A program made the position numbers and the translations under genes. From Prevotella sp. (GTDB lineage: Bacteria > Bacteroidota > Bacteroidia > Bacteroidales > Dysgonomonadaceae), in contig JAITVV010000059.1 in assembly GCA_031285625.1 (NCBI GenBank), positions 1 through 35,795 on the forward strand: a DNA stretch of 35,795 nt, given 5' to 3'. Positions 22,927 to 35,795 of the stretch are shown piece by piece; the stretch's first letter is position 1; every line of letters starts with the position of its first letter. A model generated the notes under the pieces. The model saw nothing but the letters and a program-made list of their open reading frames with translations. It was not told the origin of the DNA and searched no databases.

Positions 22927-23796
22927 TCAGATCGAAATATCCATCCTTTTATTTCTATATTGCCCTGGAGTCTGATTTGTATATTGCTTAAATAATCGAT
23001 TGAAGTATGAAATATTATCAATTGACAATTCCAACGCAATATCAGAAATAGAGAGTTCGGTGGTAAGAAGTAATAATTGTGCTTTCTCCATCTTCTTTAG
23101 ATTTATATATCTGATAGGAGTACAATTAATTTCCCTCTTAAAAATACGGATCAAATGATCTTCTGTAATACAAGCTATATTTGCCAATTGGGAAAGAGTA
23201 ACATTTTTATCTGTATTTTCATGAATATATTGCAGACATTGATTTATCCGTCCATCTTCATATCTTAATTTCAGTTTAGCTGATTCCATAAACTTGGAAA
23301 TCAATTGGTATAAAATGCCTTGTGTACCTATAATGGAATGAGTAGGTAGTCGGTTGTTATCAGCTACATACTGAGAAAAAGTGGGTATATTATCATACAT
23401 TTCCGGATCGATATATTTCAAGTGCCTATCAGGATTAATCTTCAATAACCTCTCAATTAATAATGAGTCCAAAAGATCACCTTCAATTTCGACCGGAAAA
23501 TCCAATTTTTCGAAAATAGATTCCTTATTATACGTTTTCTCATAAAAATGAATATAATAAAGAGAGAAAAAACCATCAGATTCGTCATCATGGAGGGTAA
23601 ATGGCGGGGTAAGATATAAATAACCCGGCCTTAATAGATGCATCTTCCCATTAATATAAGTCTTGGCCTCTCCACCTACCACATAATATATACGAGCAAA
23701 CGGACTATTGATATTTTTCCAGTTCCAGTTAGCATTAAGCTCGGAAAAGCCCACGTTCAATAATATTAGGTTCAGATTTTCTATTAATCGTCCCAT
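22927..23796 (-). CDS. AraC-family transcriptional regulator of fucose genes, copy 1
   Basis: 289 residues. An N-terminal cupin-like sensor (about 30-110, with FARIYYVVGGEAKTYINGK and GYLYLTPPFTLHDDE) binds the effector. The C-terminal AraC domain (about 190-285) has two helix-turn-helix motifs, LANIACITEDHLIRIFKRE and IALELSIDNISYFNRLFKQY, then TPGQYRN. It diverges from fucI copy 1; a -7 box TATATTTG for this gene is on the minus strand at 23840-23833. It is about 70% identical by eye to the second AraC gene at 27535-28395. Both sit in front of a fucI with the same operator layout, so both very likely respond to L-fucose or an intermediate. Which molecule is the effector is not shown by the sequence. 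Base composition matches the AT-rich left side of the window. Confidence 0.88.
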   Translation of the reverse strand: MGRLIENLNLILLNVGFSELNANWNWKNINSPFARIYYVVGGEAKTYINGKMHLLRPGYLYLTPPFTLHDDESDGFFSLYYIHFYEKTYNKESIFEKLDFPVEIEGDLLDSLLIERLLKINPDRHLKYIDPEMYDNIPTFSQYVADNNRLPTHSIIGTQGILYQLISKFMESAKLKLRYEDGRINQCLQYIHENTDKNVTLSQLANIACITEDHLIRIFKREINCTPIRYINLKKMEKAQLLLLTTELSISDIALELSIDNISYFNRLFKQYTNQTPGQYRNKRMDISI

Positions 23797-23881
23797 CCCT
23801 CAGAATCGTTTTTATATTATCGTTGCACAATACAAATATACTTATTTATAAACAATAACAAGTTATAAATTATTCAGAATA

Positions 23882-23946
23882 TCGATTTTATGCAATTCAT
23901 TGATCGATAAAATGAAAGCTAATCTTAAATTTAAAATCTATTTTTG
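23882..23946 (+). promoter_or_regulatory. AraC-type operator and promoter of fucI copy 1
   Basis: Half-sites TCGATTTTATGCA (from 23882) and TCGATAAAATGAA (from 23904) are 22 bp apart. The -7 box TATTTTTG (23939-23946) begins exactly 35 bp after the second half-site start. The second half-site would touch the -33 region, as expected for an activator. The same geometry recurs at 28478 and 35268. Confidence 0.75.
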
Positions 23947-23993
23947 TAAAAACCTAAGTCTAAAAAACACTAAACCGAAATAGAGAAATAACC

Positions 23994-25784
23994 ATGAAAA
24001 AAAACAGATTTCAAGGCCAATGGCCCAAAATAGGGATTCGTCCGACTATCGACGGCCGTATGGGTGGAGTTCGTGAGTCACTCGAAGTACAAACGATGAA
24101 CATGGCTAAAAGTGTAGTGGATTTACTCACTTCCACATTAAAATATCCTGATGGTACTCCTGTAGAATGTGTTGTAGCCGATTCAACTATCGGACGTGTA
24201 GCCGAAAGTGCAGCCTGCGCCGAAAAATTTCGTAGAGAAGGTGTAGGCGTTACTATTACTGTTACCCCTTGCTGGTGCTACGGCAGCGAAACAATGGATA
24301 TGGAACAGCATACAATAAAAGCCGTATGGGGCTTTAACGGGACAGAACGTCCGGGTGCTGTATACCTTGCTGCAGTATTAGCCGCACATGCACAAAAAGG
24401 ATTACCGGCATTCGGCATTTATGGACATGACGTACAAGATGCGGGAACAACAGAAATACCATGTGATGTGAAAGAAAAATTACTCCGTTTTGCAAAGGCT
24501 GGTTTGGCTGTTGCAACTATGCAGGGAAAATCTTATCTATCAATCGGCGCAGTATGTATGGGCATTGCAGGTTCGATCGTCAATACCGACTTCTTTGAAG
24601 ACTATTTAGGAATGCGTTGCGAAGGAGTAGACGAAGTAGAAATCATCCGTCGTATGACAGAAGGTATTTATGATAAGGATGAATATCAAAAAGCTCTGGC
24701 TTGGGCAAAAGCTAATTGTAAACAAGGTATAGATAATATAAATCGTCCCGATCTGATAAGAGATCACGCCGGAAGCGATAAAGACTGGGAGTTTATTGTA
24801 AGAATGACCCTGATCGTACGCGACCTGATGATTGGCAACCCGAAATTAAAAGAAATGGGATTCGGTGAAGAATCCCTTGGGCATAATGCCATTGCCGCAG
24901 GATTTCAGGGACAACGCCAATGGACAGATTTTTACCCGAATGGCGACTTTACCGAAGCAATACTTAACTCATCTTTCGACTGGACAGGCATTCGTTCGCC
25001 TTATGTATTAGCCACTGAAAATGATGCATTGAATGGTACTGCTATGCTATTTGGCTATTTATTAACCAATACAGCACAAATATTTGCTGATGTGCGTACA
25101 TATTGGAGTGCTGAAGCTGTAGAGCGTGTTACAGGGCATAAGCTCGAAGGCCTTGCAGCAGGAGGTATGATCCATCTTATCAACTCAGGTGCGGCTACTT
25201 TGGATGGTAGTGGACGCCAGAATGATAAGGAAGGTAAACCTACGATGAAACCATTCTGGGATATTACCGAGACAGAAGCAAAAGCATGTTTGGATGCGAC
25301 GACATGGATGCCTGCAAACCGTGAATATTTCCGTGGAGGAGGTTTTTCGTCCAAATTCCTTACACGTGGGGGAATGCCATGTACAATGGTTCGCCTCAAT
25401 CTGGTAAAAGGATTAGGCCCAGTATTACAAATAGCGGAAGGCTGGACCGTTGACCTTGATCCTGAGGTACACAAAATACTGGATGAGAGAACAGATAAGG
25501 GCTGGCCTACAACTTGGTTTGTTCCACGCTTAACTGACAGTGACAACTTTAAAGATGTATACTCTGTAATGAATAACTGGGGAGCCAATCATGGATCTAT
25601 CAGCTGTGGTCATATCGGAGCAGACCTTATCACATTAGCATCAATGCTTCGTATACCAGTTTGCATGCATAATGTAGATGAGGAAAATATTTATCGTCCT
25701 TCATCATGGAATGCCTTTGGCATGGATAAGGAAGGTGCAGATTACAGAGCATGCCAAACATATGGTCCTCTTTATAAAAAATAG
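23994..25784 (+). CDS. fucI: L-fucose isomerase, copy 1
   Basis: 596 residues, full length for FucI. It converts L-fucose to L-fuculose (also D-arabinose to D-ribulose) in the cytosol with a Mn ion. The metal ligands known from E. coli FucI align with E342 (TENDALNG), D366 (FADVRTYW) and H533 (NWGANHG). The signature [18 protein letters not shown] starts at residue 12 and the end [11 protein letters not shown] is typical. The ATG is 41 nt after the predicted transcription start. The next gene downstream (53-bp gap) is a truncated fucA, so copy 1 has lost its downstream pathway genes but this isomerase is intact. It is about 90% identical to copy 2, with most differences at the third codon position on the DNA level. 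Confidence 0.96.
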
Positions 25785-25837
25785 ATAACCGGTTCCGGAA
25801 ATTAATAAAAGCCAGAAATTAATAAAAAACACAATCA

Positions 25838-26101
25838 ATGATTACTAAATATATATCAGAATTCATCAATCAGGCTCATCGTGTAGGTGCAGAACGTTTA
25901 CAACTTTGTAGTAGCGGGAACCTCTCATGGAGAGTAGAAGATAACCTGGCATTAGTTTCCGGAACAGGCTCATGGCTTCCGCGTTTAGCAGAAGAAAATG
26001 TAGTATTATGTGAGATATCCAGTGGCATGCGCGTAGATGGTCCGAAACCATCTATGGAAAGTACATTCTGCCTGGGACTACCGATAGGAAGAAACAAGTA
26101 G
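25838..26101 (+). pseudogene. fucA: Truncated L-fuculose-phosphate aldolase, copy 1
   Basis: 87 codons. The first 76 align without gaps to the intact fucA at 31702 (LQLCSSGNLSWRVE, VSGTGSWLPRLA, DGPKPSMES). Similarity ends at about 26068, just after the predicted catalytic Glu (E75). The last eleven residues (CLGLPIGRNK and following stop) are unrelated to the aldolase. The metal-binding histidines and over half of the protein of 214 residues are missing, so the product cannot work. The cut is followed by 140 bp of non-fuc sequence and an integrase gene, so the break probably marks an element boundary. The missing 3' part is not seen elsewhere in the window. Confidence 0.88.
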
Positions 26102-26241
26102 AACCCCAAACTCGAAAGTTTCAACAACCGAAAGAAAATCAGCAGAATAACCTTACTGTGGTGGAAAGGTTAGAAATAGAGACTTCATAAAATACAGGCT
26201 TTTGTTGTACAATTGTTAGACTAAAAACAATTGGGATCACA
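26102..26241. other. Junction segment upstream of the integrase
   Basis: This stretch resembles neither fucA nor the other fuc genes. It includes an inverted repeat CAATTGTT/AACAATTG (26210-26217 with 26226-26233) directly in front of the integrase start, possibly an arm site or promoter operator. I could not find a matching direct repeat after the integrase that would define the attachment core. Confidence 0.4.
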
Positions 26242-27444
26242 ATGAAAGCGACACTCAAAATTTTACTCAGGAACAATTACCGGACAAAGGAAGGCAAACG
26301 TCAGGTTTGCATCCGTTATACATCCTATAGACAGGCAACGTTTATAGGGTTAAACATATCCGTACACCCCAAAGACTGGAACGATAGCAGAAAGCAGGTC
26401 AAGGCTACCGAGCCACACCATTTGCTTTACAACCGCATTATTAAGGAACAGTACCATAAATCGGAAGGCATCATACTGGATAATTTCCTGACACCCCTAA
26501 CCACTAAAGACTTTATAGCGAAGCTAAAGGATAAACATTATGGTAACGAAGACTTCTATACTTTCATAGAAAACGAGTTGGAACTCATCAAGTCTTCCCG
26601 AGCGAGCCAAACCCTGTCCAACTACCGCAACCTTATCAACAAGATGAAGGAATGGAAACCCTCATTAACCTTCAATGAAATCACACTGGAATACATCCAG
26701 CGTTTCCACGACCACGAACTGAAAACAGGCAACATACTCTCCACTATCTATAAGAAACACGCCAATTTCAAGTTCCTGCTGGGTCTTGCGGTAAACAAGG
26801 AATACATGGAAAAGAACCCATACGAAAAGTTCGAGATAAAGAAGATAACAAAGGCACAGAATAACGATATACTGACCGAAGACGAACTGAAGATACTTCA
26901 AGAAGCCTATAACCAAGACAGATATACCGGAGGCAAGAAAGAAGTCCTGCGTGACTTCCTCTTTAGCTGTTACACCTCACTCAGTTATGCTGAGTTCCAC
27001 AATGTTACTTACGGCGATTTAAAGCCCGTTACGATAAAAGTAGATGGCAAGGAAGAAACATACCCTCTATTATGCAATGACCGCCAGAAAACGGCTGTAT
27101 TGTATAAGATACCCATTGTCTCACCCATAGTAGAACAGTTATTGGAACGAAAGACAAAAAAAGGAGATAAGGAAGCATTCCAAAAGATATTTTCTCCTTT
27201 GACTAACCAGCCGACTAACCGTTATTTGAAAGAAATCATAGAAGACCTGAATATTAATAAGACGATGACCTTTCATCGAGCAAGACATAGTTTCCGCACG
27301 ATAGCTGCGAAGAAAGGTATCCGGGACAGCATAGCCGAACGGATTATGGGGCATGCCGAGGGTAACGACATTCAAAATATCTACATGCACCTGAGTGACG
27401 AGGATATTGTTAGGGAGATGCTGGATAAGTGGGTGGTAAAGTAA
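26242..27444 (+). CDS. int: Tyrosine recombinase of the IntDOT/Bacteroidota integrase type
   Basis: 400 residues. An arm-binding N-terminal region (about 1-95, with IRYTSYRQATFIGLNISVH), a SAM-like core-binding domain (about 103-195) and a catalytic domain (about 210-400). Catalytic set: K283 (RQKTAVLY), H345 and R348 (HRARHSF), H371 (GHAEGND) and nucleophile Y381 (IYMHLS). The first catalytic Arg (Arg I), expected in TGLRYSD-type motifs, is Ser here (TSLSYAEF, S248). IntDOT of conjugative transposons is known to have Ser at this place, so this is a family trait and not damage. The gene is complete, but no other element genes (excisionase, mobilisation) are visible, so the element is either a remnant or a simple cargo island. 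Its more GC-rich composition differs from the left-hand neighbours. It converges with the second AraC gene. Confidence 0.92.
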   Translation: MKATLKILLRNNYRTKEGKRQVCIRYTSYRQATFIGLNISVHPKDWNDSRKQVKATEPHHLLYNRIIKEQYHKSEGIILDNFLTPLTTKDFIAKLKDKHYGNEDFYTFIENELELIKSSRASQTLSNYRNLINKMKEWKPSLTFNEITLEYIQRFHDHELKTGNILSTIYKKHANFKFLLGLAVNKEYMEKNPYEKFEIKKITKAQNNDILTEDELKILQEAYNQDRYTGGKKEVLRDFLFSCYTSLSYAEFHNVTYGDLKPVTIKVDGKEETYPLLCNDRQKTAVLYKIPIVSPIVEQLLERKTKKGDKEAFQKIFSPLTNQPTNRYLKEIIEDLNINKTMTFHRARHSFRTIAAKKGIRDSIAERIMGHAEGNDIQNIYMHLSDEDIVREMLDKWVVK

Positions 27445-27534
27445 ATTGCAGGATAGTGCACGATAGGGCGGTATATAGTTTAAATTTTAAAATATTTTTT
27501 TCAATGATTATTAAGATACGTGAATTAAACTATC

Positions 27535-28395
27535 TTAGCTAATATATGTACTCCGGTAGCCGCCGGGAGTTAGTCCCGTATATTGCTTGAACAACCGGTT
27601 AAAATAAGAGATATTGTCAATGGATAAATTAAGGGCGATATCGGTTATTTGCATATCCGTTGTTAAAAGCAGTAATTGCGCCCTCTCGATTTTCTTTTGG
27701 TTTATATATTTTACGGGAGTGCAGTCCAGTTCTTTCCTGAAAATACGGGTTAAATGGTCTACGGAGACGCACGCGATATCAGCCAGCCGGAGCAGCGTGA
27801 TATCTTTATCCATATTTTCATGAATGTATTGCATACATTTATTTATCCGTTCGTTTTTATATCTCATTTTCAGGCCGGCAAACCGGAGGAAGCGGGAAAC
27901 CAGCCAGGATAGTATGCTCTGGGTTTCCATGAACGAGTGCACAGGCAATATATTGTTGTCGGCTACATATCGGGAAAACGCGGGCATATTATCGTATACG
28001 CCGGGGTCTATGTGCTTCAGTTCCCTGTCCGGGTTTATATGCATCAGCCTTTTAACGAGCGACAGTTCCAGGGAGTCCGCGCTGATTTCAACCGGAAAAT
28101 CAAGTTTATCGAAAAGAGGTTCCCTATTATTTATCTTTTCATAAAAATGTATATAATAGAGGGAAAACAAACCGTCGCATTCATCGTCATGCAACGTGAA
28201 GGGTGGGGTAAGGTACAGGCTCCCGGGCTTCAATACATACATCTTTCCATTGATATATGTTCTGGCCTGTCCGCCGGTTACATAGTATATGCGGGCAAAC
28301 GGGCTGCAAACCTTTTTCCAGTTCCAGTCGGCATTCAGTTCCGAGAAACCGATATTCAGCAGGATGAAGCTTAAGTTATCGACAAGTTTATGCAT
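27535..28395 (-). CDS. AraC-family transcriptional regulator of fucose genes, copy 2
   Basis: 286 residues from the ATG at 28395, chosen because it aligns with the start of copy 1 (MHKLVDNLSFILLN against MGRLIENLNLILLN); the frame is open for 15 more codons upstream. Sensor domain blocks FARIYYVTGGQARTYINGK and LYLTPPFTLHDDE match copy 1. The AraC domain has LADIACVSVDHLTRIFRKE and the second motif IALNLSIDNISYFNRLFKQY, identical to copy 1 in its recognition helix. The first motif differs at several positions from copy 1. GC content is clearly higher than in copy 1. It is divergent from fucI copy 2, with a near-consensus -7 box (TATATTCG, 28437-28430, minus strand). It probably activates the complete fuc operon and the third site at 35268. 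Confidence 0.88.
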   Translation of the reverse strand: MHKLVDNLSFILLNIGFSELNADWNWKKVCSPFARIYYVTGGQARTYINGKMYVLKPGSLYLTPPFTLHDDECDGLFSLYYIHFYEKINNREPLFDKLDFPVEISADSLELSLVKRLMHINPDRELKHIDPGVYDNMPAFSRYVADNNILPVHSFMETQSILSWLVSRFLRFAGLKMRYKNERINKCMQYIHENMDKDITLLRLADIACVSVDHLTRIFRKELDCTPVKYINQKKIERAQLLLLTTDMQITDIALNLSIDNISYFNRLFKQYTGLTPGGYRSTYIS

Positions 28396-28477
28396 GGCAG
28401 GTGTCGTTTTTATGGCTTGGTTACGAATGCGAATATACACATTAACAAGTTATCACAGTACTGTTTTCTTTAAAATA

Positions 28478-28542
28478 TCGGATTTGTGATATTAACTGGT
28501 CGGTAAAGTGAAAGTTATTTTTGCTTCAAGAATCTATATTTG
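28478..28542 (+). promoter_or_regulatory. AraC-type operator and promoter of the complete fuc operon
   Basis: Half-sites TCGGATTTGTGAT (from 28478) and TCGGTAAAGTGAA (from 28500) are 22 bp apart. The -7 box TATATTTG (28535-28542) begins 35 bp after the second half-site start. This box overlaps a TTG codon at 28540 that would otherwise be read as an upstream start of fucI, which rules that start out. Confidence 0.78.
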
Positions 28543-28599
28543 CATATAGCCCGGATAAAACAGGATTTAAATAATCAACCGTTAAAATCTAAAAATATC

Positions 28600-30387
28600 A
28601 TGACAAGAAAAAGATTTCAAGGCGAATGGCCTAAAATTGGTATCCGTCCCACAATCGACGGACGTATGGGTGGTGTACGTGAATCACTCGAGACCCAGAC
28701 TATGAACATGGCGAAAAGTGTGGTTAGCCTGTTAACCGCTACACTTAAATATCCTGACGGGACTCCCGTGCAGTGCGTGATTGCGGATTCTACAATCGGC
28801 CGCGTAGCCGAAAGTGCAGCATGTGCTGAAAAATTCCGCAGGGAAGGAGTTGGCGTGACCATTACCGTTACTCCCTGCTGGTGTTATGGCAGCGAAACGA
28901 TGGATATGGAACCGCATACGGTTAAAGCTGTCTGGGGATTCAATGGCACAGAGCGCCCCGGAGCAGTATATCTTGCGGCAGTATTAGCCGGACATGCACA
29001 AAAAGGATTGCCTGCCTTTGGCATCTATGGACGTGATGTTCAGGATGCAGGTACTACCGAATTGCCTGCCGATGTGAAAGAAAAACTGCTTCGTTTTGCT
29101 AAAGCTGCATTAGCAGTCGCTACTATGCGCGGCAAATCATATCTGTCTATCGGAGCCGTATGTATGGGTATAGCAGGGTCTATCGTGAATACAGATTTCT
29201 TTGAAGATTACCTGGGCATGCGTTGCGAAGGTATAGACGAAGTGGAAATTATCCGCCGTATGACCGAAGGCATCTATGATAAGGAAGAATACGAAAAAGC
29301 ATTGGCATGGGCAAAAGCTAACTGCAAACAGGGTGAAGATAATATTAACCGTCCCGACCTGAAAAGAGACCCGGCCGGCAGTGATAAGGATTGGGAGTTT
29401 ATCGTAAAAATGACGCTCATTGTGCGCGACCTGATGGCAGGTAATCCGAAGCTCAAGGATATGGGATTTGGTGAAGAAGCATTGGGACACAATGCAATTG
29501 TCGCAGGATTTCAGGGCCAACGCCAGTGGACAGACTTTTATCCGAATGGCGACTTTACCGAAGCTATCCTTAATTCATCGTTTGACTGGACGGGAATACG
29601 TTCTCCTTATGTTTTGGCAACAGAAAACGATGCGCTGAACGGAACTGCGATGTTGTTCGGGTACTTATTAACAAATACAGCCCAGATATTCGCCGACGTG
29701 CGCACTTACTGGAGTGCCGAGGCTGTTGAACGTGTTACAGGAAAGAAACTGGACGGTTTGGCCTCAGGAGGAATGATTCATCTTATCAATTCCGGTGCGG
29801 CTACTCTGGATGGTAGCGGTCGCCAGAATGATGAAAATGGTAAGCCTACTATGAAACCGTTCTGGAACATTACCGAGGCAGAGGCGAAAGCCTGTCTGGA
29901 TGCAACTACATGGATGCCTGCCAACCGTGAATATTTCCGTGGGGGTGGTTTTTCATCTAAATTCCTGACTCGTGGAGGCATGCCATGTACAATGGTGCGC
30001 CTGAATCTGGTGAAAGGTCTCGGGCCTGTCTTGCAGATTGCCGAAGGATGGACTGTAGAACTGGAGCCTGCTGTACACAAAATACTGGATGATCGCACAG
30101 ATAAAGGCTGGCCTACAACATGGTTTGTGCCTCGCCTGACTGACGATCCTAATTTCAAGGATGTATACTCGGTAATGAACAACTGGGGAGCCAACCATGG
30201 TTCTATCAGTTGCGGGCATATCGGTGCCGATCTGATTACTTTGGCATCCATGCTTCGCATCCCTGTTTGTATGCACAATGTGAGCGCCGATAATATTTAC
30301 CGTCCGGCTGCATGGGCTGCATTCGGTATGGATAAGGAAGGCGCCGATTATCGCGCTTGTCAGACTTATGGACCTCTTTATAAATAA
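28600..30387 (+). CDS. fucI: L-fucose isomerase, copy 2
   Basis: 595 residues from the ATG at 28600. The frame is open to a TTG at 28540, but that lies inside the promoter. Same reaction and metal ligands as copy 1 ([23 protein letters not shown]). It is the first gene of the complete set fucI-fucO-fucA-fucK-fucP. A 163-bp gap with a Bacteroidota repeat element separates it from fucO. About 90% of residues match copy 1, but synonymous positions are heavily changed and GC is higher. The two are therefore long separated, and one of them was probably gained by transfer rather than by local duplication. Confidence 0.96.
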
Positions 30388-30397
30388 TTTATGTGTG

Positions 30398-30512
30398 AGG
30401 CTGTCTGAAAGGTAGTTGTTTGTCATCCTGACCAACGAGAAGGATTTATCTTCTTATTGTAAGAGATGTTTCACTACGTTCAACATGACAAAAAGCCCTT
30501 TTAGACAGCTTT
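30398..30512. repeat. Palindromic repeat element between fucI and fucO (MITE/REP-like)
   Basis: The outer ends AGGCTGTCTGAAA (30398 on) and TTTTAGACAGCTT (to 30512) form imperfect inverted repeats. Inside, TTGTCATCCTGA and a later TTCAACATGACAA form a nested imperfect dyad. The core wording (GTCATCCTGA, TTCACTACGTTCA, CATGACAA) resembles a dispersed repeat that I know from many Bacteroidota genomes. It lies within the fuc operon and would fold into a long hairpin in the transcript, so it may reduce or process the message between fucI and fucO. Confidence 0.7.
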
Positions 30513-30550
30513 ATATTTAAAATTCTACATACTCACAAATAAATGAAACT

Positions 30551-31705
30551 ATGATAAACAGATTCGTTCTGAATGAGGTGGCTTATTTTGGTCCGGGCGC
30601 CCGTCTAGTTTTACCTGATGAGATAAAAAGACTGGGATTGCATAAGGCTTTTGTTGTGACAGATAAAGATCTGATAAAGTTCGGTGTGGCTGAAAAAGTG
30701 CTTTCTGTTCTTGAAACGGCAAAAATACCATATGAAGTGTTCAGTGAAATAAAACAGAATCCGACTGTAAAGAATGTAAAAGACGGATTGACTGCATATG
30801 CCGGATCGGGAGCCGATTTTATTCTGGCTATTGGTGGAGGTTCATCTATCGATACGGCGAAGGCTATAGGCATTGTTTCCAATAATCCGGAATTCAGTGA
30901 TATTGTTTCCCTGGAAGGAACAGCGGCCACCAAAAATAAATCAGTACCTGTTATTGCGTTGCCTACCACGGCCGGAACAGCCGCCGAGGTAACAATCAAC
31001 TATGTGATAACAGACGAAGTAAATCAAAAGAAAATGGTTTGCGTCGATCCGAATGATATACCGATTCTGGCTATTGTAGACGCAGAACTGATGTACACAT
31101 TGCCGAAGAGCCTTACGGCAGCTACGGGTATGGATGCATTGACTCATGCTATAGAAGGCTTGATTACAAAAGGGGCATGGGAGATGAGTGATATGTTCGA
31201 AATAAAGGCTATCGAAATGATAAACCGCCACTTGGTGACTGCTACATTCGAACCGGATAATGCTGAAGCCCGCAACGGTATGGCTGTAGCTCAATATATT
31301 GCAGGAATGGCATTCTCAAATGTAGGCTTGGGTCTTGTACATGGTATGGCGCATCCTCTGGGTGCAATATTCGATATACCGCATGGTGTGGCAAATGCTA
31401 TGTTGCTCCCTACAGTGATGGAATATAATTCTCCTGCTGCTATCGGCAAATATGTGACAATAGCTAAGGCGATGGATGTATATCAGCCCGGAAAATCGAA
31501 AGTAGAAAACGCGCAACTGGCGATCAATGCCGTAAAACACCTGGCTGAAAAAGTCGGTATACCTGAACATTTGAGTGAATTCGGAATTACAGAAAACGAT
31601 TTGGATAAACTGGCAGAAGCGGCAGTAAATGATGTTTGCACTCCCGGCAATCCGAGGGAAGTAACCAAAGAAATTATTATTGAATTATATAGAAAAGTAT
31701 TATGA
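30551..31705 (+). CDS. fucO: Lactaldehyde reductase (iron-dependent alcohol dehydrogenase)
   Basis: 384 residues, matching FucO of the group III alcohol dehydrogenases. The NAD-binding motif GGGSSIDTAK is at 95-104. Predicted Fe ligands are D195 and H199 (GMDALTHA), H264 (GLVHGMAHP) and H278 (DIPHG), in the same order as in E. coli FucO. It reduces L-lactaldehyde, made by fuculose-phosphate aldolase, to 1,2-propanediol with NADH during anaerobic growth. Its presence predicts propanediol as an end product of fucose use. Its last four bases overlap the start of fucA (ATGA), indicating translational coupling. Copy 1 of the locus has no fucO between fucI and fucA. Confidence 0.94.
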   Translation: MINRFVLNEVAYFGPGARLVLPDEIKRLGLHKAFVVTDKDLIKFGVAEKVLSVLETAKIPYEVFSEIKQNPTVKNVKDGLTAYAGSGADFILAIGGGSSIDTAKAIGIVSNNPEFSDIVSLEGTAATKNKSVPVIALPTTAGTAAEVTINYVITDEVNQKKMVCVDPNDIPILAIVDAELMYTLPKSLTAATGMDALTHAIEGLITKGAWEMSDMFEIKAIEMINRHLVTATFEPDNAEARNGMAVAQYIAGMAFSNVGLGLVHGMAHPLGAIFDIPHGVANAMLLPTVMEYNSPAAIGKYVTIAKAMDVYQPGKSKVENAQLAINAVKHLAEKVGIPEHLSEFGITENDLDKLAEAAVNDVCTPGNPREVTKEIIIELYRKVL

Positions 31706-32346
31706 TAACCCAGGAACATATAGAGCAGTTTATAGAAGCTGCTCATCGTGTCGGTCGCGAACGTCTTCAATTATGCAGTAGTGGAAACCTGTCGTGGAGA
31801 GTAGAAGAAAACCGGGCTTTGGTATCGGGAACAGGTTCATGGTTGCCGCGTCTAGCCAAAGAGAATGTTGCCATATGCGATATTTCAACAGGAATGCCTG
31901 TCGATGGACCTAAACCGTCTATGGAGAGCGTATTTCATTTAGGCGTTTTGCGTGAGCGTAAAGACATGAATGTGGTACTGCATTTCCAGTCGGAATTTGC
32001 TACTATCGTTTCCTGTATGAAGAATAAACCGGGAAACTTTAATGTTGTGGCAGAAGTTCCTTGTTATTGCGGAAAAGAAATTCCTGTTATACCTTATTTC
32101 CGTCCGGGATCGAAAGAACTGGCAGAGGCAGTAACAGAAGCATTGACCGATCACGATTGTGTGCTGATGGGCAAACACGGTCAGGCTGTATGTGGAAAAG
32201 ACTTTGACGATGCTTTTCAGAAGGCCGTATTTTTCGAACTCGCATGTAGCATTATTGTACGTGCTGGTGAAGGAAACTATCAGACTCTGACCGAAGATGA
32301 AATTCGCGATCTTGAAGTTTATATATTGGGAAAAAACACAAAATAA
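31702..32346 (+). CDS. fucA: L-fuculose-phosphate aldolase (class II aldolase/adducin family)
   Basis: 214 residues, the usual size. It should split L-fuculose 1-phosphate into dihydroxyacetone phosphate and L-lactaldehyde. The phosphate-binding LCSSGNLSWR (24-33) and VSGTGSW (41-47) and the catalytic E75 (KPSMES) are present. Of the three Zn-binding histidines known in E. coli FucA, H94 (in LHFQSEF) and H159 (GKHGQAVCG) are present. The second His of the H-x-H pair is replaced by Q96. The protein starts at an ATGA overlap with fucO and ends 5 bp before fucK, so all are co-translated. The replacement may be a feature of a Bacteroidota subgroup, and the assignment to fuculose phosphate rests mainly on the operon. 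Confidence 0.88.
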   Translation: MITQEHIEQFIEAAHRVGRERLQLCSSGNLSWRVEENRALVSGTGSWLPRLAKENVAICDISTGMPVDGPKPSMESVFHLGVLRERKDMNVVLHFQSEFATIVSCMKNKPGNFNVVAEVPCYCGKEIPVIPYFRPGSKELAEAVTEALTDHDCVLMGKHGQAVCGKDFDDAFQKAVFFELACSIIVRAGEGNYQTLTEDEIRDLEVYILGKNTK

Positions 32347-32351
32347 ATACG

Positions 32352-33812
32352 ATGGCTTATTTGGCTTTAGATCTCGGTGCCGGAAGTGGCCGGGCTATTG
32401 TAGGAACTATTGAGGACGAAAAACTGGAACTTATTGAAATACACCGTTTCAATAATGTTCCCGTAAAGATGGGAAATACTCTCTATTGGGATTTTCTATC
32501 CTTATTTTCGAATATCAAAGAGAGTATCCGGTTGGCTGTAAAAAGAGGCTATGTGTTGCAAGGAATAGCTGTGGATACCTGGGGTGTTGATTTCGGACTA
32601 ATTGACAAATCCGGTAAATTACTCTCGAACCCTGTATGCTACCGGGATAGCCGTACTAAAGGAATGATGCCGGGAGCAATGAAATTAATATCTCAGAACG
32701 AACTGTATTCCATAACCGGAATCCAGCAAATGGAGATTAATTCTGTATTCCAGCTAATGAGCATGGGGAAACATAAAGATCCGACTTTATTAGTGGGGGA
32801 CAGACTATTGTTTACACCGGATCTGATAAACTTTTTCCTCACAGGCACTGTCTGCAATGAGTACACAATAGCTTCGACTTCCCAACTCTTAAACGCCCAA
32901 ACAAAAGAATGGGAAAAAAGTATATTCGACCGGCTGGGTCTGCCATCACATATGATGAGTGAAATCATACACCCTTGTTCTGTGATAGGAGAATTAAACA
33001 AGGATATTGCGGTGGAAACAGGAGTCGAAAACTCCAACGTATTTGCCGTAGGCTCTCATGATACAGCGAGCGCTATAGCTGCTATTCCGATGGAAGATGA
33101 TAATTGTGCCTTTCTTAGTTCAGGAACATGGTCTTTGCTGGGAGTTTTGCTGGACGAACCGATACTTAGTAATGAAGCTATGAATAATGAATTTACGAAT
33201 GAAGGCGGGGTTGATAATAAGATTCTCTTTATGAGGAATATTACAGGGCTTTGGTTGCTTCAACGTTTAATAGCCGAATGGGAAAAAAGTAATGAGGAAC
33301 TGTCTTATGAATATCTTTTATCAGCATGTAATCAAAGTGAACCTTTCCGCAGTATTGTAGACAGTGACGATCCGCTATTCAACAATCCGGCTTCAATGAC
33401 TGCGGCAATCAGGGAATATTGTACATATACTAACCAGAAATGCCCTGAAACACAAGGGGAGTTTGTTCGTTGTGTCCTTGAATCACTGGCTTTGAAGTAT
33501 AAAGTTGTGATGGAGAAACTGCAGGACTGTACAGGTAAGAAGATACAAAAGTTATATGTAGTAGGGGGAGGCAGCCGGAATGAGCTGTTGAACCAGTATA
33601 TATCGGACGCCCTGAATATGGAGGTAATCACAGGGCTTACAGAAGCAACAGCCATCGGAAATATCGTACAACAGGCTATAGCGAATAAACAGCTGGCGAA
33701 TATGAAAAAAGGCCATCAGATAATAAGTAACAGCTTTGATTTTAAATCTTACTATCCTCAAAACAGTGAAGATTGGGAGAATGCGGTGAAAACGTATGCC
33801 AATATATTCTGA
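32352..33812 (+). CDS. fucK: L-fuculokinase (FGGY family, rhamnulokinase-like)
   Basis: 486 residues. FGGY-type ATPase motifs are DLGAGSGRAI (7-16), VDTWGVDFGL (74-83), VGSHDTASAIAA (about 237-248) and SSGTWSLLG. The sequence is closer in style to rhamnulokinase than to enterobacterial FucK, as usual for the fuculokinase of Bacteroidota. It phosphorylates L-fuculose at C1 in the cytosol, feeding fucA. It is 5 bp after fucA and 38 bp before fucP. A rhamnulokinase function is possible from sequence alone, but no rhaA or rhaD is nearby and all neighbours are fucose genes. Confidence 0.9.
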   Translation: MAYLALDLGAGSGRAIVGTIEDEKLELIEIHRFNNVPVKMGNTLYWDFLSLFSNIKESIRLAVKRGYVLQGIAVDTWGVDFGLIDKSGKLLSNPVCYRDSRTKGMMPGAMKLISQNELYSITGIQQMEINSVFQLMSMGKHKDPTLLVGDRLLFTPDLINFFLTGTVCNEYTIASTSQLLNAQTKEWEKSIFDRLGLPSHMMSEIIHPCSVIGELNKDIAVETGVENSNVFAVGSHDTASAIAAIPMEDDNCAFLSSGTWSLLGVLLDEPILSNEAMNNEFTNEGGVDNKILFMRNITGLWLLQRLIAEWEKSNEELSYEYLLSACNQSEPFRSIVDSDDPLFNNPASMTAAIREYCTYTNQKCPETQGEFVRCVLESLALKYKVVMEKLQDCTGKKIQKLYVVGGGSRNELLNQYISDALNMEVITGLTEATAIGNIVQQAIANKQLANMKKGHQIISNSFDFKSYYPQNSEDWENAVKTYANIF

Positions 33813-33850
33813 AATAACTATTTTGTGATTGAAAAAAGAATTAATACCAT

Positions 33851-35185
33851 ATGAACAACACTAAGAAATCATTATTTACGGGAAGTCAGGGACAAAGTTA
33901 CCTGTTTCCTTTCATCCTGATAACAAGCCTTTTCTTCTTATGGGGGTTTGCCCACAGCCTGCTGGATGTATTAAATAAACATTTCCAGGATTCACTGCAT
34001 CTGACAAAGGCCCAATCGGGAGCCGTACAGGCATCGGCCTATGGAGCTTATTTCCTGATGGCGATACCGGCAGGTATAATTGCCCGGAAATTTGGGTATA
34101 AAAGAGGTATAATCGTAGGGCTTATCTTGTTTGCCTTAGGTGCATTCTGGTTTGTCCCGGCAGTAAGCATCGATACATTCTGGGCTTTTTTGCTGGGACT
34201 TCTTATTCTGTTTTGCGGGCTGACCTGCCTCGAAACAGTGGCTAATCCGTATACAATCGTATTGGGACCACCCGAAACATCTGCCAGCCGTATTAATCTT
34301 GCACAGACATTCAATGCTATCGGATGGATACTGGGCCCTTTGGTAGGCTCTATACTTATCTTTGGTAATGAGTCGGATAAATCTATATTTGAATTATTTA
34401 CAGAAGCGCTGGAGAAAGTCTTTCTGGGTGCTGCTGACACAGTTCAGACTGTGGCAAATACCGTAGAGGAACATACCGGTAATTCGGCCCTGATACCACC
34501 CTATGTAAGTTTAGGTATCTTAGTCCTTTTGGTGCTGGTTCTGTTCTTATTCACCAAACTTCCGGAGATATCCTCAAACGATGACGCACATCGAGCAGAA
34601 GTTGATAATACTATCACAAATAATAAACCATTGGTCAAACAAAAGCATTTCGTGATGGCTGTTATAGCCCAGCTTTTATATGTGGCGGCGCAAACCGGTA
34701 TCGGCAGCTTTTTTATTAACTACACGATAGAAGTAAAAGAGCTGCAACTGAACGAAATGCAGGGTGGACTCTTGCTCGGTATGGGCGGTATGGCATTGTT
34801 TGCCATCGGACGCTTCTCGGGAAGCTTTATCATGCGAAAAATCAAGCCCGGAACCTTATTGGGTACATTTGCCCTGATAAATACCTTGCTAATGCTGTTT
34901 GTGACTCTTAATCATAACCGCTTTGGTGTAATGGCACTGATTGCATCCTATCTGTTTATGTCGATTATGTTCCCTTCCATTTTTGCCTTGGGGGTAAAAG
35001 GCTTGGGGGAGAAAACAAAAACGGCAGCCTCTATTCTTGTACTGACAGTAGTCGGAGGGGCTATAGCGCCTGGTCTTATGGGAGTAATAGGAGCGAAAAG
35101 CATGAATACAGGCTTTATTATTCCGCTAATCTGCTTCTTGTATATTTCATTTTTCGGATATATAGGCGGACGGATAAAAAATTGA
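33851..35185 (+). CDS. fucP: L-fucose:H+ symporter (MFS)
   Basis: 444 residues with about 12 membrane segments, the first being FILITSLFFLWGFAHSLLD (21-39). Residues matching the functional acidic pair of E. coli FucP are D39 (after SLLD) and E128 (CLETVANPY). The typical LGPPETSASRINLAQTFN block is at about 136-153. A soluble central loop of about 45 residues (around 175-215, rich in Glu, Thr and Val) is longer than in E. coli. It brings free fucose across the inner membrane. It is the last recognised gene of the operon; no fucU mutarotase is found. No clear terminator follows before the third operator at 35268. Confidence 0.94.
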   Translation: MNNTKKSLFTGSQGQSYLFPFILITSLFFLWGFAHSLLDVLNKHFQDSLHLTKAQSGAVQASAYGAYFLMAIPAGIIARKFGYKRGIIVGLILFALGAFWFVPAVSIDTFWAFLLGLLILFCGLTCLETVANPYTIVLGPPETSASRINLAQTFNAIGWILGPLVGSILIFGNESDKSIFELFTEALEKVFLGAADTVQTVANTVEEHTGNSALIPPYVSLGILVLLVLVLFLFTKLPEISSNDDAHRAEVDNTITNNKPLVKQKHFVMAVIAQLLYVAAQTGIGSFFINYTIEVKELQLNEMQGGLLLGMGGMALFAIGRFSGSFIMRKIKPGTLLGTFALINTLLMLFVTLNHNRFGVMALIASYLFMSIMFPSIFALGVKGLGEKTKTAASILVLTVVGGAIAPGLMGVIGAKSMNTGFIIPLICFLYISFFGYIGGRIKN

Positions 35186-35267
35186 AAAACAATTATTTGC
35201 TTTATGAAGTAAAGAGTCCGGATACCTTATTCTATTCACAAATATGAATATCCTTATATTAAGAATG

Positions 35268-35332
35268 TCGGTTTTGTGCAATAAACTGGTCGGATATGTG
35301 AAAAGCATTAACAAAAACTTAGCGTATTTTTG
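35268..35332 (+). promoter_or_regulatory. Third AraC-type operator and promoter, after fucP
   Basis: Half-sites TCGGTTTTGTGCA (from 35268) and TCGGATATGTGAA (from 35290) are 22 bp apart. TATTTTTG (35325-35332) begins 35 bp after the second half-site start. The site keeps the TCGG form of copy 2 and not the TCGA form of copy 1. Transcription would start near 35339 and run towards the SusC-type gene at 35677. No divergent regulator gene is present here. Confidence 0.75.
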
Positions 35333-35460
35333 AAAAATCAATCATTGTAACCATATTCATGCTTGTAATATAAACCAGTTAATGACACAATCCCAACAAA
35401 AATACAGCGAACCGCAACGATTATTCCTCTCTGAAAATTTGGAAGTTAGCATTGTTTTGT

Positions 35461-35519
<59 letters not shown>

Positions 35520-35537
35520 AATCCCATTATATTAAGG

Positions 35538-35584
35538 ACAGAAAGCCTTTGTTTATCTTTTGCAGATAAGCAAAGGCTTTCTGT
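35538..35584 (+). terminator. Strong leader hairpin (attenuator or terminator candidate)
   Basis: A 20-bp stem (ACAGAAAGCCTTTGTTTATC with its complement, one G-U wobble) closes over a 7-nt loop TTTTGCA. It is followed by TTATATT, only weakly T-rich, so a full terminator is uncertain. It begins 20 bp after the GA run and 93 bp before the next start codon, suggesting a role in the leader RNA. Confidence 0.6.
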
Positions 35585-35676
35585 TTATATTCCATGCCTG
35601 ACCTGCAAAGGTCAGATTAATCTATAGAACATTCTAACCCTAATTAATTATTATATGTTAATTTAATTATTAATCT

Positions 35677-35795
35677 ATGAAAAAATCTAAAACAAAATTG
35701 AAAAAGCATGATGGATGCCTTTTTCACAGAAGTATGAGAATTTGTTTTATACTGTTCTCTGCCGGTTTTTGGACGATGCTGTCTGCTGCTCCGGT
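35677..35795 (+). CDS. Start of an exported protein, probably a SusC-type receptor (cut by window edge)
   Basis: 39 complete codons from the ATG at 35677: a basic stretch (MKKSKTKLKKHDG) and then a hydrophobic segment (MRICFILFSAGFWTMLSAAP). The long charged N-terminus followed by a signal-type segment is common in SusC/RagA receptors of Bacteroidota. The gene lies downstream of the third fucose-type operator, so a surface receptor for fucose-containing glycans fits. Family assignment from 39 residues is tentative. The leader between promoter and start is about 338 nt long. Confidence 0.5.
   Translation, partial: MKKSKTKLKKHDGCLFHRSMRICFILFSAGFWTMLSAAP

Follow-up and report, generated by a model that had tools for sequence, protein, structure and literature searches.

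The locus studied here raises the question of whether three look-alike sites, two of them in front of L-fucose genes, form one operator, and which protein would read it. The sites lie in the window, by which we mean the entire contig C71 (35,795 bases) of a Prevotella sp. assembly of 4.84 Mb in 96 contigs (94.25% complete). A first-pass annotation of this DNA had described paired half-sites of the pattern TCGR-N4-RTG, with 22-bp and 35-bp spacings and a -7 box, at three positions. Reading of the sequence bore this out, as all three sites have half-site starts 22 bp apart and the box TAnnTTTG 35 bp past the second start. Our results suggest that they are very probably tandem-repeat operators through which an AraC-family protein, encoded by araC1 and/or araC2, activates L-fucose use in a class-II-like manner.

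One geometry at three sites

The three operators and their -7 boxes are as follows, with E-values from the profile described in the next section.

23882..23914, plus strand: operator 1, half-sites 23882-23892 and 23904-23914 (E 1.3e-12)
23939..23946, plus strand: -7 box of operator 1, TATTTTTG, 35 bp after the second half-site start
28478..28510, plus strand: operator 2, half-sites 28478-28488 and 28500-28510 (E 1.5e-10)
28535..28542, plus strand: -7 box of operator 2, TATATTTG
35268..35300, plus strand: operator 3, half-sites 35268-35278 and 35290-35300 (E 1.6e-5)
35325..35332, plus strand: -7 box of operator 3, TATTTTTG

Operator 1 is located between araC1 (minus strand) and fucI1, and operator 2 between araC2 (minus strand) and the fucI2-fucO-fucA-fucK-fucP genes, so that two sites indeed precede fucI genes divergent from AraC genes, as had been claimed. 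The fucI1 and fucI2 genes start 47 and 57 nucleotides after their respective -7 boxes. Operator 3 follows fucP and precedes a SusC-like gene that is truncated at the contig end.

The recurrence of the three sites is confirmed to be far above chance. The exact pair of half-sites occurs three times in the window and in none of 100 dinucleotide shuffles; on both strands of a first-order Markov sequence totalling 10.7 Mb it was found once, and never together with the box. The single half-site, with 14 occurrences in the window against an expected mean of 11.55, is not enriched, and it was rejected as a signal by itself. When the spacer of the pair was left free between 9 and 13, the three window sites, all with a spacer of 11, were the sole matches in the whole genome. 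However, the reversed control of this loose-spacer pair gave 4 matches, as numerous as those of the pattern itself, and the loose pattern was therefore rejected as a genome test: the loose pair by itself is weak, and specificity comes from the fixed spacing and the box. With the box and both spacings fixed, 9 matches in 6 genomes were found among the 101 genomes of the family that were searched, and none with the reversed control. Outside the window, five of the six fixed-pattern matches lie directly upstream of an AraC homologue, and the remaining one (G019:C169) lies where a contig ends. Chance recurrence was rejected on the basis of the shuffles, the Markov sequence, the reversed control and the genome profile search.

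The genes that surround the first two operators, and those that follow the second, are listed here.

22927..23796, minus strand: araC1, AraC-family regulator of 289 residues (Pfam HTH_AraC 1.2e-21, AraC_binding 8.1e-6), divergent from fucI1
23833..23840, minus strand: likely -7 box of araC1, TATATTTG, 36 nucleotides before the ATG, as read in the sequence
23994..25784, plus strand: fucI1, L-fucose isomerase (NCBIfam TIGR01089, above cut-off)
26242..27444, plus strand: tyrosine recombinase/integrase between the two araC-fucI pairs (Pfam Phage_integrase 4.9e-11)
27535..28395, minus strand: araC2, AraC-family regulator (Pfam HTH_AraC 1.2e-20)
28430-28437, minus strand: -7-like box of araC2, TATATTCG, identified by eye
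28600..30387, plus strand: fucI2, L-fucose isomerase, first gene of the operon (NCBIfam TIGR01089, above cut-off)
30551..31705, plus strand: fucO, lactaldehyde reductase (NCBIfam TIGR02638, 608.8 bits, above cut-off)
31702..32346, plus strand: fucA-like class II aldolase (Pfam Aldolase_II 7.6e-39; no NCBIfam cut-off reached among the models shown)
32352..33812, plus strand: fucK-like FGGY kinase (closest model rhamnulokinase, below cut-off)
33851..35185, plus strand: fucP, fucose:H+ symporter (NCBIfam TIGR00885, 347.5 bits, above cut-off)

The start of araC2 was placed by eye at the ATG at 28395, which aligns with the araC1 start, within an open frame that extends to a GTG at 28440; for fucI2, likeness to fucI1 pointed to the ATG at 28600 rather than to the TTG that opens the longest frame. 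The two araC-fucI pairs (22927-30387) flank the recombinase gene. Elsewhere in the window, at positions 312-20632, is a polysaccharide locus that encodes a hybrid two-component regulator along with GH51, GH97, GH43 and SusC/SusD proteins; its substrate may be a glycan that contains arabinose. The operator is absent from this locus by an ungapped matrix, which gave the three sites 63, 50 and 30 bits and its next best position in the window -2.9.

The site in the genome and its relatives

Thirteen loci outside the window have fucI beside an AraC gene, and all of them carry the site with the 22- and 35-bp spacings and agree with the template at 17 to 20 of its 20 positions. These 13 fucI loci and a G008 site before a GH29 gene made up the training alignment A1 (14 sequences, 76 columns, gapless), from which a sequence-only profile was built without any window site. 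The pattern given for the half-site in the first-pass annotation held in this comparison, but its extent of 13 bp did not: the conserved element is longer, with the majority consensus AATATCGATATTGTACTATTTATTCATCGAAATAGTGAAAG over these 14 sites from other genomes.

Random placement across the genome had been named as an outcome that would speak against the operator. In the window's own genome, where 150 first-look candidates out of 6166 were scored, the profile gave the three window sites as the only full-length matches; the next of the 34 listed matches was partial, at E 0.025. The operator thus withstood this check. Profile E-values are rough, as the calibration was shortened, and the scan of the family was run with stricter filters.

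A search for FucI found one at E <= 1e-100 in 79 of the 101 genomes. From all matches, a subset of 43 fucI loci (30 fetched by the FucI search and 13 chosen stretches) was scored over the 600 bp upstream of fucI with a leave-one-out matrix, which retained close relatives of each left-out site and never included the window, G024 and G006 sites. Where fucI was at least 85% identical to fucI2, the site was present in 16 of 17 loci, with scores from 15.7 to 77.7, and in the seventeenth (G008) it stood ahead of the GH29 gene that precedes fucI. The 26 lower-identity loci represent 25 distinct ones, as G036 was fetched twice, and none of the 25 (67-82% identical) carried the site, the best score being -9.9, or an AraC gene in the stretch fetched. 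Among these negatives is a third fucI of the window's own genome (G000:C28:128039-129793, 67% identical to fucI2), which has no operator and a different gene setting. Thus, the site tracks one type of fucI, and no fucI locus of the other kind that was scored has it, in line with the earlier proposal that a fucose regulon can be defined by sequence.

Another account of this likeness is that the promoter was duplicated together with araC and fucI, and that the sites share descent without function. The two pairs are in fact paralogous, since araC1 and araC2 are 67.7% identical over 282 residues and fucI1 and fucI2 about 92%. However, the third site precedes an unrelated gene, and divergence is seen in the flanks of the half-sites but neither in the half-sites themselves nor in the two spacings, across the 13 other fucI loci as well. 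Shared descent alone was rejected, as the geometry is kept at sites before unrelated genes, and we consider this explanation extremely improbable.

Further matches before fucosidases or SusC/SusD genes had been expected, and such matches were seen in the relatives. At E <= 1e-3, the family scan returned 15 matches that belong neither to the window nor to the training set, and 12 of them, one by inference, precede genes expected of an L-fucose regulon and not unrelated ones: fucose operons in three cases, GH29 genes in five (one of them a relic) and SusC/SusD pairs in four. Downstream genes were scanned in part. The fucI-fucA-fucK-fucP operons of G024 and G006, which lie on a contig other than that of araC, carry the site at E 4.1e-14 and 8.8e-14, and in G094 it stands before an apparently interrupted mutarotase-fucK-fucP operon, whose mutarotase was named by eye from its resemblance to a scanned one in G090. 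Sites precede GH29 fucosidases in G024 and G006 (both beside araC), G016 and G072:C30; in G072:C38 the site is followed by what remains of a broken GH29 gene, with AraC and GH95 genes next to it. SusC/SusD pairs follow the site in G014, G024, G006 and, by inference, G019, where the operator and the SusC/SusD gene are on separate contigs (C325 and C315) with similar, though not identical, leaders. The GH29 gene of G006:C1 and the SusC/SusD genes of G006:C5 were named by starts nearly identical to those of the scanned G024 genes. A further SusC/SusD site, in G010, matched positions 4-75 of 76 at E 0.0023 with the same spacings. The fucosidase targets are seen in relatives only, the own genome having three sites by profile, and the SusC/SusD pairs with the operator presumably take up fucosylated glycans. 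Some relatives have a small extra gene between fucI and fucA; the one in G090 (L102:8717-9106) matches L-rhamnose mutarotase (PF05336), and a gene in G008 (L100:6221-6610) is similar by eye.

The candidate regulator and its promoter

That an operator of fixed geometry is conserved and goes with a defined gene set is established by computation; the protein that binds it was approached through the neighbouring AraC genes. The products of araC1 and araC2 both match PF00165 and PF12833, the C-terminal double helix-turn-helix of AraC type, at E about 1e-20, and both match the ligand-binding domain PF02311 above its gathering score (E 8.1e-6 and 2.5e-7), over part of the profile only. By sequence, their nearest solved chain is the DNA-binding domain of E. 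coli AraC (2k9s, E 1.4e-13). A search with AraC2 matched 23 of the 101 genomes at E <= 1e-40, with 26 matches in total, and the fucose-type proteins form a clade of 19 rows from 17 genomes (support 100/99, with a bootstrap that was not fully settled), in which the window pair groups with G005 and G090. A scan of genome contigs with AraC2 brought up 4 loci and no useful site among them. A profile match at E 1e-9 or better was present in each of the 17 genomes that encode a fucose-type AraC, and 2 of the remaining 84 had a match below 1e-6; this co-occurrence is partly built in, because 14 of the 17 AraC-bearing genomes supplied a training site. A sister clade of 5 rows (L033, L034, L035, L036, L041; 46-50% identical to AraC2) has upstream TCGATAAAGTG-like half-sites, some with a slightly different period by eye, and those of G072 are near fucosidase genes.

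It is also conceivable that the site is genuine but serves a different regulator, such as a FucR of GntR type, and that the AraC genes are bystanders. In its favor, the FucR of B. thetaiotaomicron is a GntR protein according to the accessible part of PMC3878776. On the other hand, a tandem direct repeat with a period of about 21 bp is the form used by AraC-type rhamnose regulators (PMC3870299), and that of hybrid two-component systems (HTCS) has a period of 20-21 bp (PMC3878776), as far as the consulted parts of these papers go. Furthermore, a Pfam scan of 23 window proteins gave no GntR-family match, the rest of the genome not having been searched for a FucR orthologue, and the site is present in every genome with a fucose-type AraC and in few others. 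We therefore regard a non-AraC binder as improbable.

The promoters point to the manner of action. The TAnnTTTG box is exact in all three window sites and in 12 of the 14 aligned sites, the other 2 having one change, and neither TTTG nor TTG was found 18-22 bp before the box in any of 17 promoters (3 from the window and 14 others). In the alignment of the 14 sites the downstream half-site reads TCGRnnnnRTGAAAG, with TCG and TGA invariant. Each promoter thus has a -7 box, no -33 element and a half-site in its place, which is the arrangement of a class-II-type promoter and suits an activator that touches RNA polymerase. In the mechanism that we propose, an AraC protein would bind L-fucose or a catabolic intermediate and then the two direct half-sites, which, at a period of 22 bp or about two helical turns, would both lie on about one face of the helix. 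The downstream half-site would cover the position of a -33 element, and bound AraC would bring in RNA polymerase at a promoter whose -7 box is good but which lacks a -33 box. The predicted targets in this genome are fucI1, the fucI2-fucO-fucA-fucK-fucP operon and the SusC-like outer-membrane transport gene.

Alternatively, AraC could be a repressor or a DNA-looping dual regulator, and the geometry could reflect autoregulation of the divergent araC promoter. E. coli AraC acts as such a repressor or dual regulator, looping DNA and controlling its own divergent promoter. Here, two of the sites lie between divergent genes, and the -7-like box of araC1 is 41 bp from the operator. However, the same -7 box geometry is found with no divergent araC nearby, at fucI in G024 and G006 and at the SusC sites, and the absence of a -33 box suits activation. 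This alternative appears unlikely, although less so than the two considered above.

Several observations weigh against a fucose-responsive AraC activator. No explanation was found for three of the 15 out-of-sample matches. In G019:C169 the contig ends about 80 nucleotides downstream of the match, the one in G068:C25 (E 1e-5) is next to a gene for a hybrid two-component protein, and that in G034:C1 is partial and falls within an open reading frame. Two genomes, G016 (51% complete) and G094, carry the site and had no AraC match in the AraC2 search. The putative regulator was assigned by linkage, and AraC paralogues with similar DNA-binding domains could share sites, or one of them could be inactive. 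The binding protein, its ligand and activation rather than repression are probable features of the system, deduced from the DNA.

The third target, its leader and known systems

The region downstream of operator 3 contains the following features.

35382..35627, plus strand: leader open reading frame of 81 residues with a (Glu-Arg)n run, starting 49 nucleotides after the -7 box
35462..35517, plus strand: (AG)28 repeat in the leader open reading frame
35536..35586, plus strand: terminator-like hairpin of 23 pairs with a 5-nucleotide loop, between the leader repeat and the SusC-like gene
35677..35795, plus strand: start of the SusC-like gene, which the contig end truncates (third target; 39-residue N-terminus with no Pfam match of its own)

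The prediction of a third target at the window edge was upheld: the N-terminus matches, at 73% over 37 residues, a gene of G019 whose product carries TonB plug and barrel domains and which a SusD-like gene follows, and it is on this match that we call the gene SusC-like. In G019 a similar operator precedes a nearly identical leader on another contig and is presumably linked to the SusC gene there. The -7 box of operator 3 is 344 nucleotides from the SusC-like gene.

The stretch of the leader before the repeat was found in 15 of the 101 family genomes, all of a single genus (reversed control 0), and in 3 of 393 genomes of a sample of the order, again only in that genus. Tracts of (AG)n with at least 10 units occur in 17 of 25 genomes of the genus and in none of the other 8, and one copy, in G023 (L164), has 156 AG units as assembled. 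We examined 62 copies of the leader family with different flanks, 59 of which had 130 nucleotides upstream. The Glu-Arg frame is open from an ATG for at least 18 codons in 57 of these 59 copies, versus 5 of them for the next frame; the count for the third frame (0/59) is no test, because a stop is built into the search pattern. Two leucines before the run are kept in 58 of 59 copies at two free bases, as TTG/TTA or TTA/CTA. In 42 of 53 copies whose downstream sequence is clean, a hairpin within the next 170 nucleotides is more stable than each of 6 shuffles per copy. The frame stops before the hairpin in 24 of the 53 copies, inside it in 11 and beyond it in 17, with 1 undetermined; such mixed positions suit phase variation and, equally, an absence of selection. 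Downstream, 50 of the 62 copies have an open reading frame of at least 150 residues, 24 of them with a TonB plug domain, and the family thus precedes TonB/SusC-like and other genes.

Operator 3 may tentatively be seen as part of a two-layer switch, in which a phase-variable leader-peptide attenuator would randomize surface transport on top of sugar-specific control, although we consider this rather doubtful. The length of the AG repeat would set the frame after the Glu-Arg run, and thereby decide whether ribosomes halt ahead of the hairpin or translate through it. A spreading repeat cassette with no function stands as an alternative explanation for the leader family. Our literature search found no report of AG-repeat or poly-Glu-Arg leaders, one of its queries being loose ('susc' also matched 'susceptible'), and the accessible part of PMC4060949 contains nothing on them. 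If the family is a true attenuator, it would offer a way to make SusC-type transporters phase variable that we did not find in print.

As far as our searches show, the kind of operator is already known and an AraC-type fucose regulon is new; no report of one in Bacteroidota was found, RegPrecise and most subscription papers being outside the search. Two paralogous regulators with one common code are now directly testable.

At araI1-I2 of E. coli, AraC binds tandem half-sites, the downstream one next to RNA polymerase. The DNA-binding domain of that protein is the nearest solved relative of those described here, but the sigma factor and the promoter type differ, and the likeness to araI1-I2 is one of arrangement. 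The HTCS regulators of Bacteroides, as described in the accessible part of PMC3878776, likewise have an AraC-type DNA-binding domain, direct repeats with a period of about 20-21 bp and an association with SusC/SusD loci, whereas the window proteins are one-component regulators with AraC_binding and no histidine kinase or receiver domain. RhaR of Bacteroides is an AraC-family regulator for another 6-deoxyhexose, L-rhamnose, and uses an operator that likewise has the form of a direct repeat (PMC3870299); it controls other sugar genes, and its period is 21 rather than 22 bp. The FucR of B. thetaiotaomicron also controls L-fucose catabolism, but it belongs to the GntR family and, in the portion of PMC3878776 consulted, has the L-fucose catabolic operon as its single target, whereas here AraC genes are divergent from fucI and the sites of relatives also reach fucosidase and SusC/SusD genes. 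Altogether, our results define, at the level of sequence, an operator and its set of targets for a putative AraC-type fucose regulator, in place of the GntR protein of B. thetaiotaomicron, and in the relatives this one operator links the breakdown of the monosaccharide with fucosidase and SusC/SusD genes, including loci far from the regulator.

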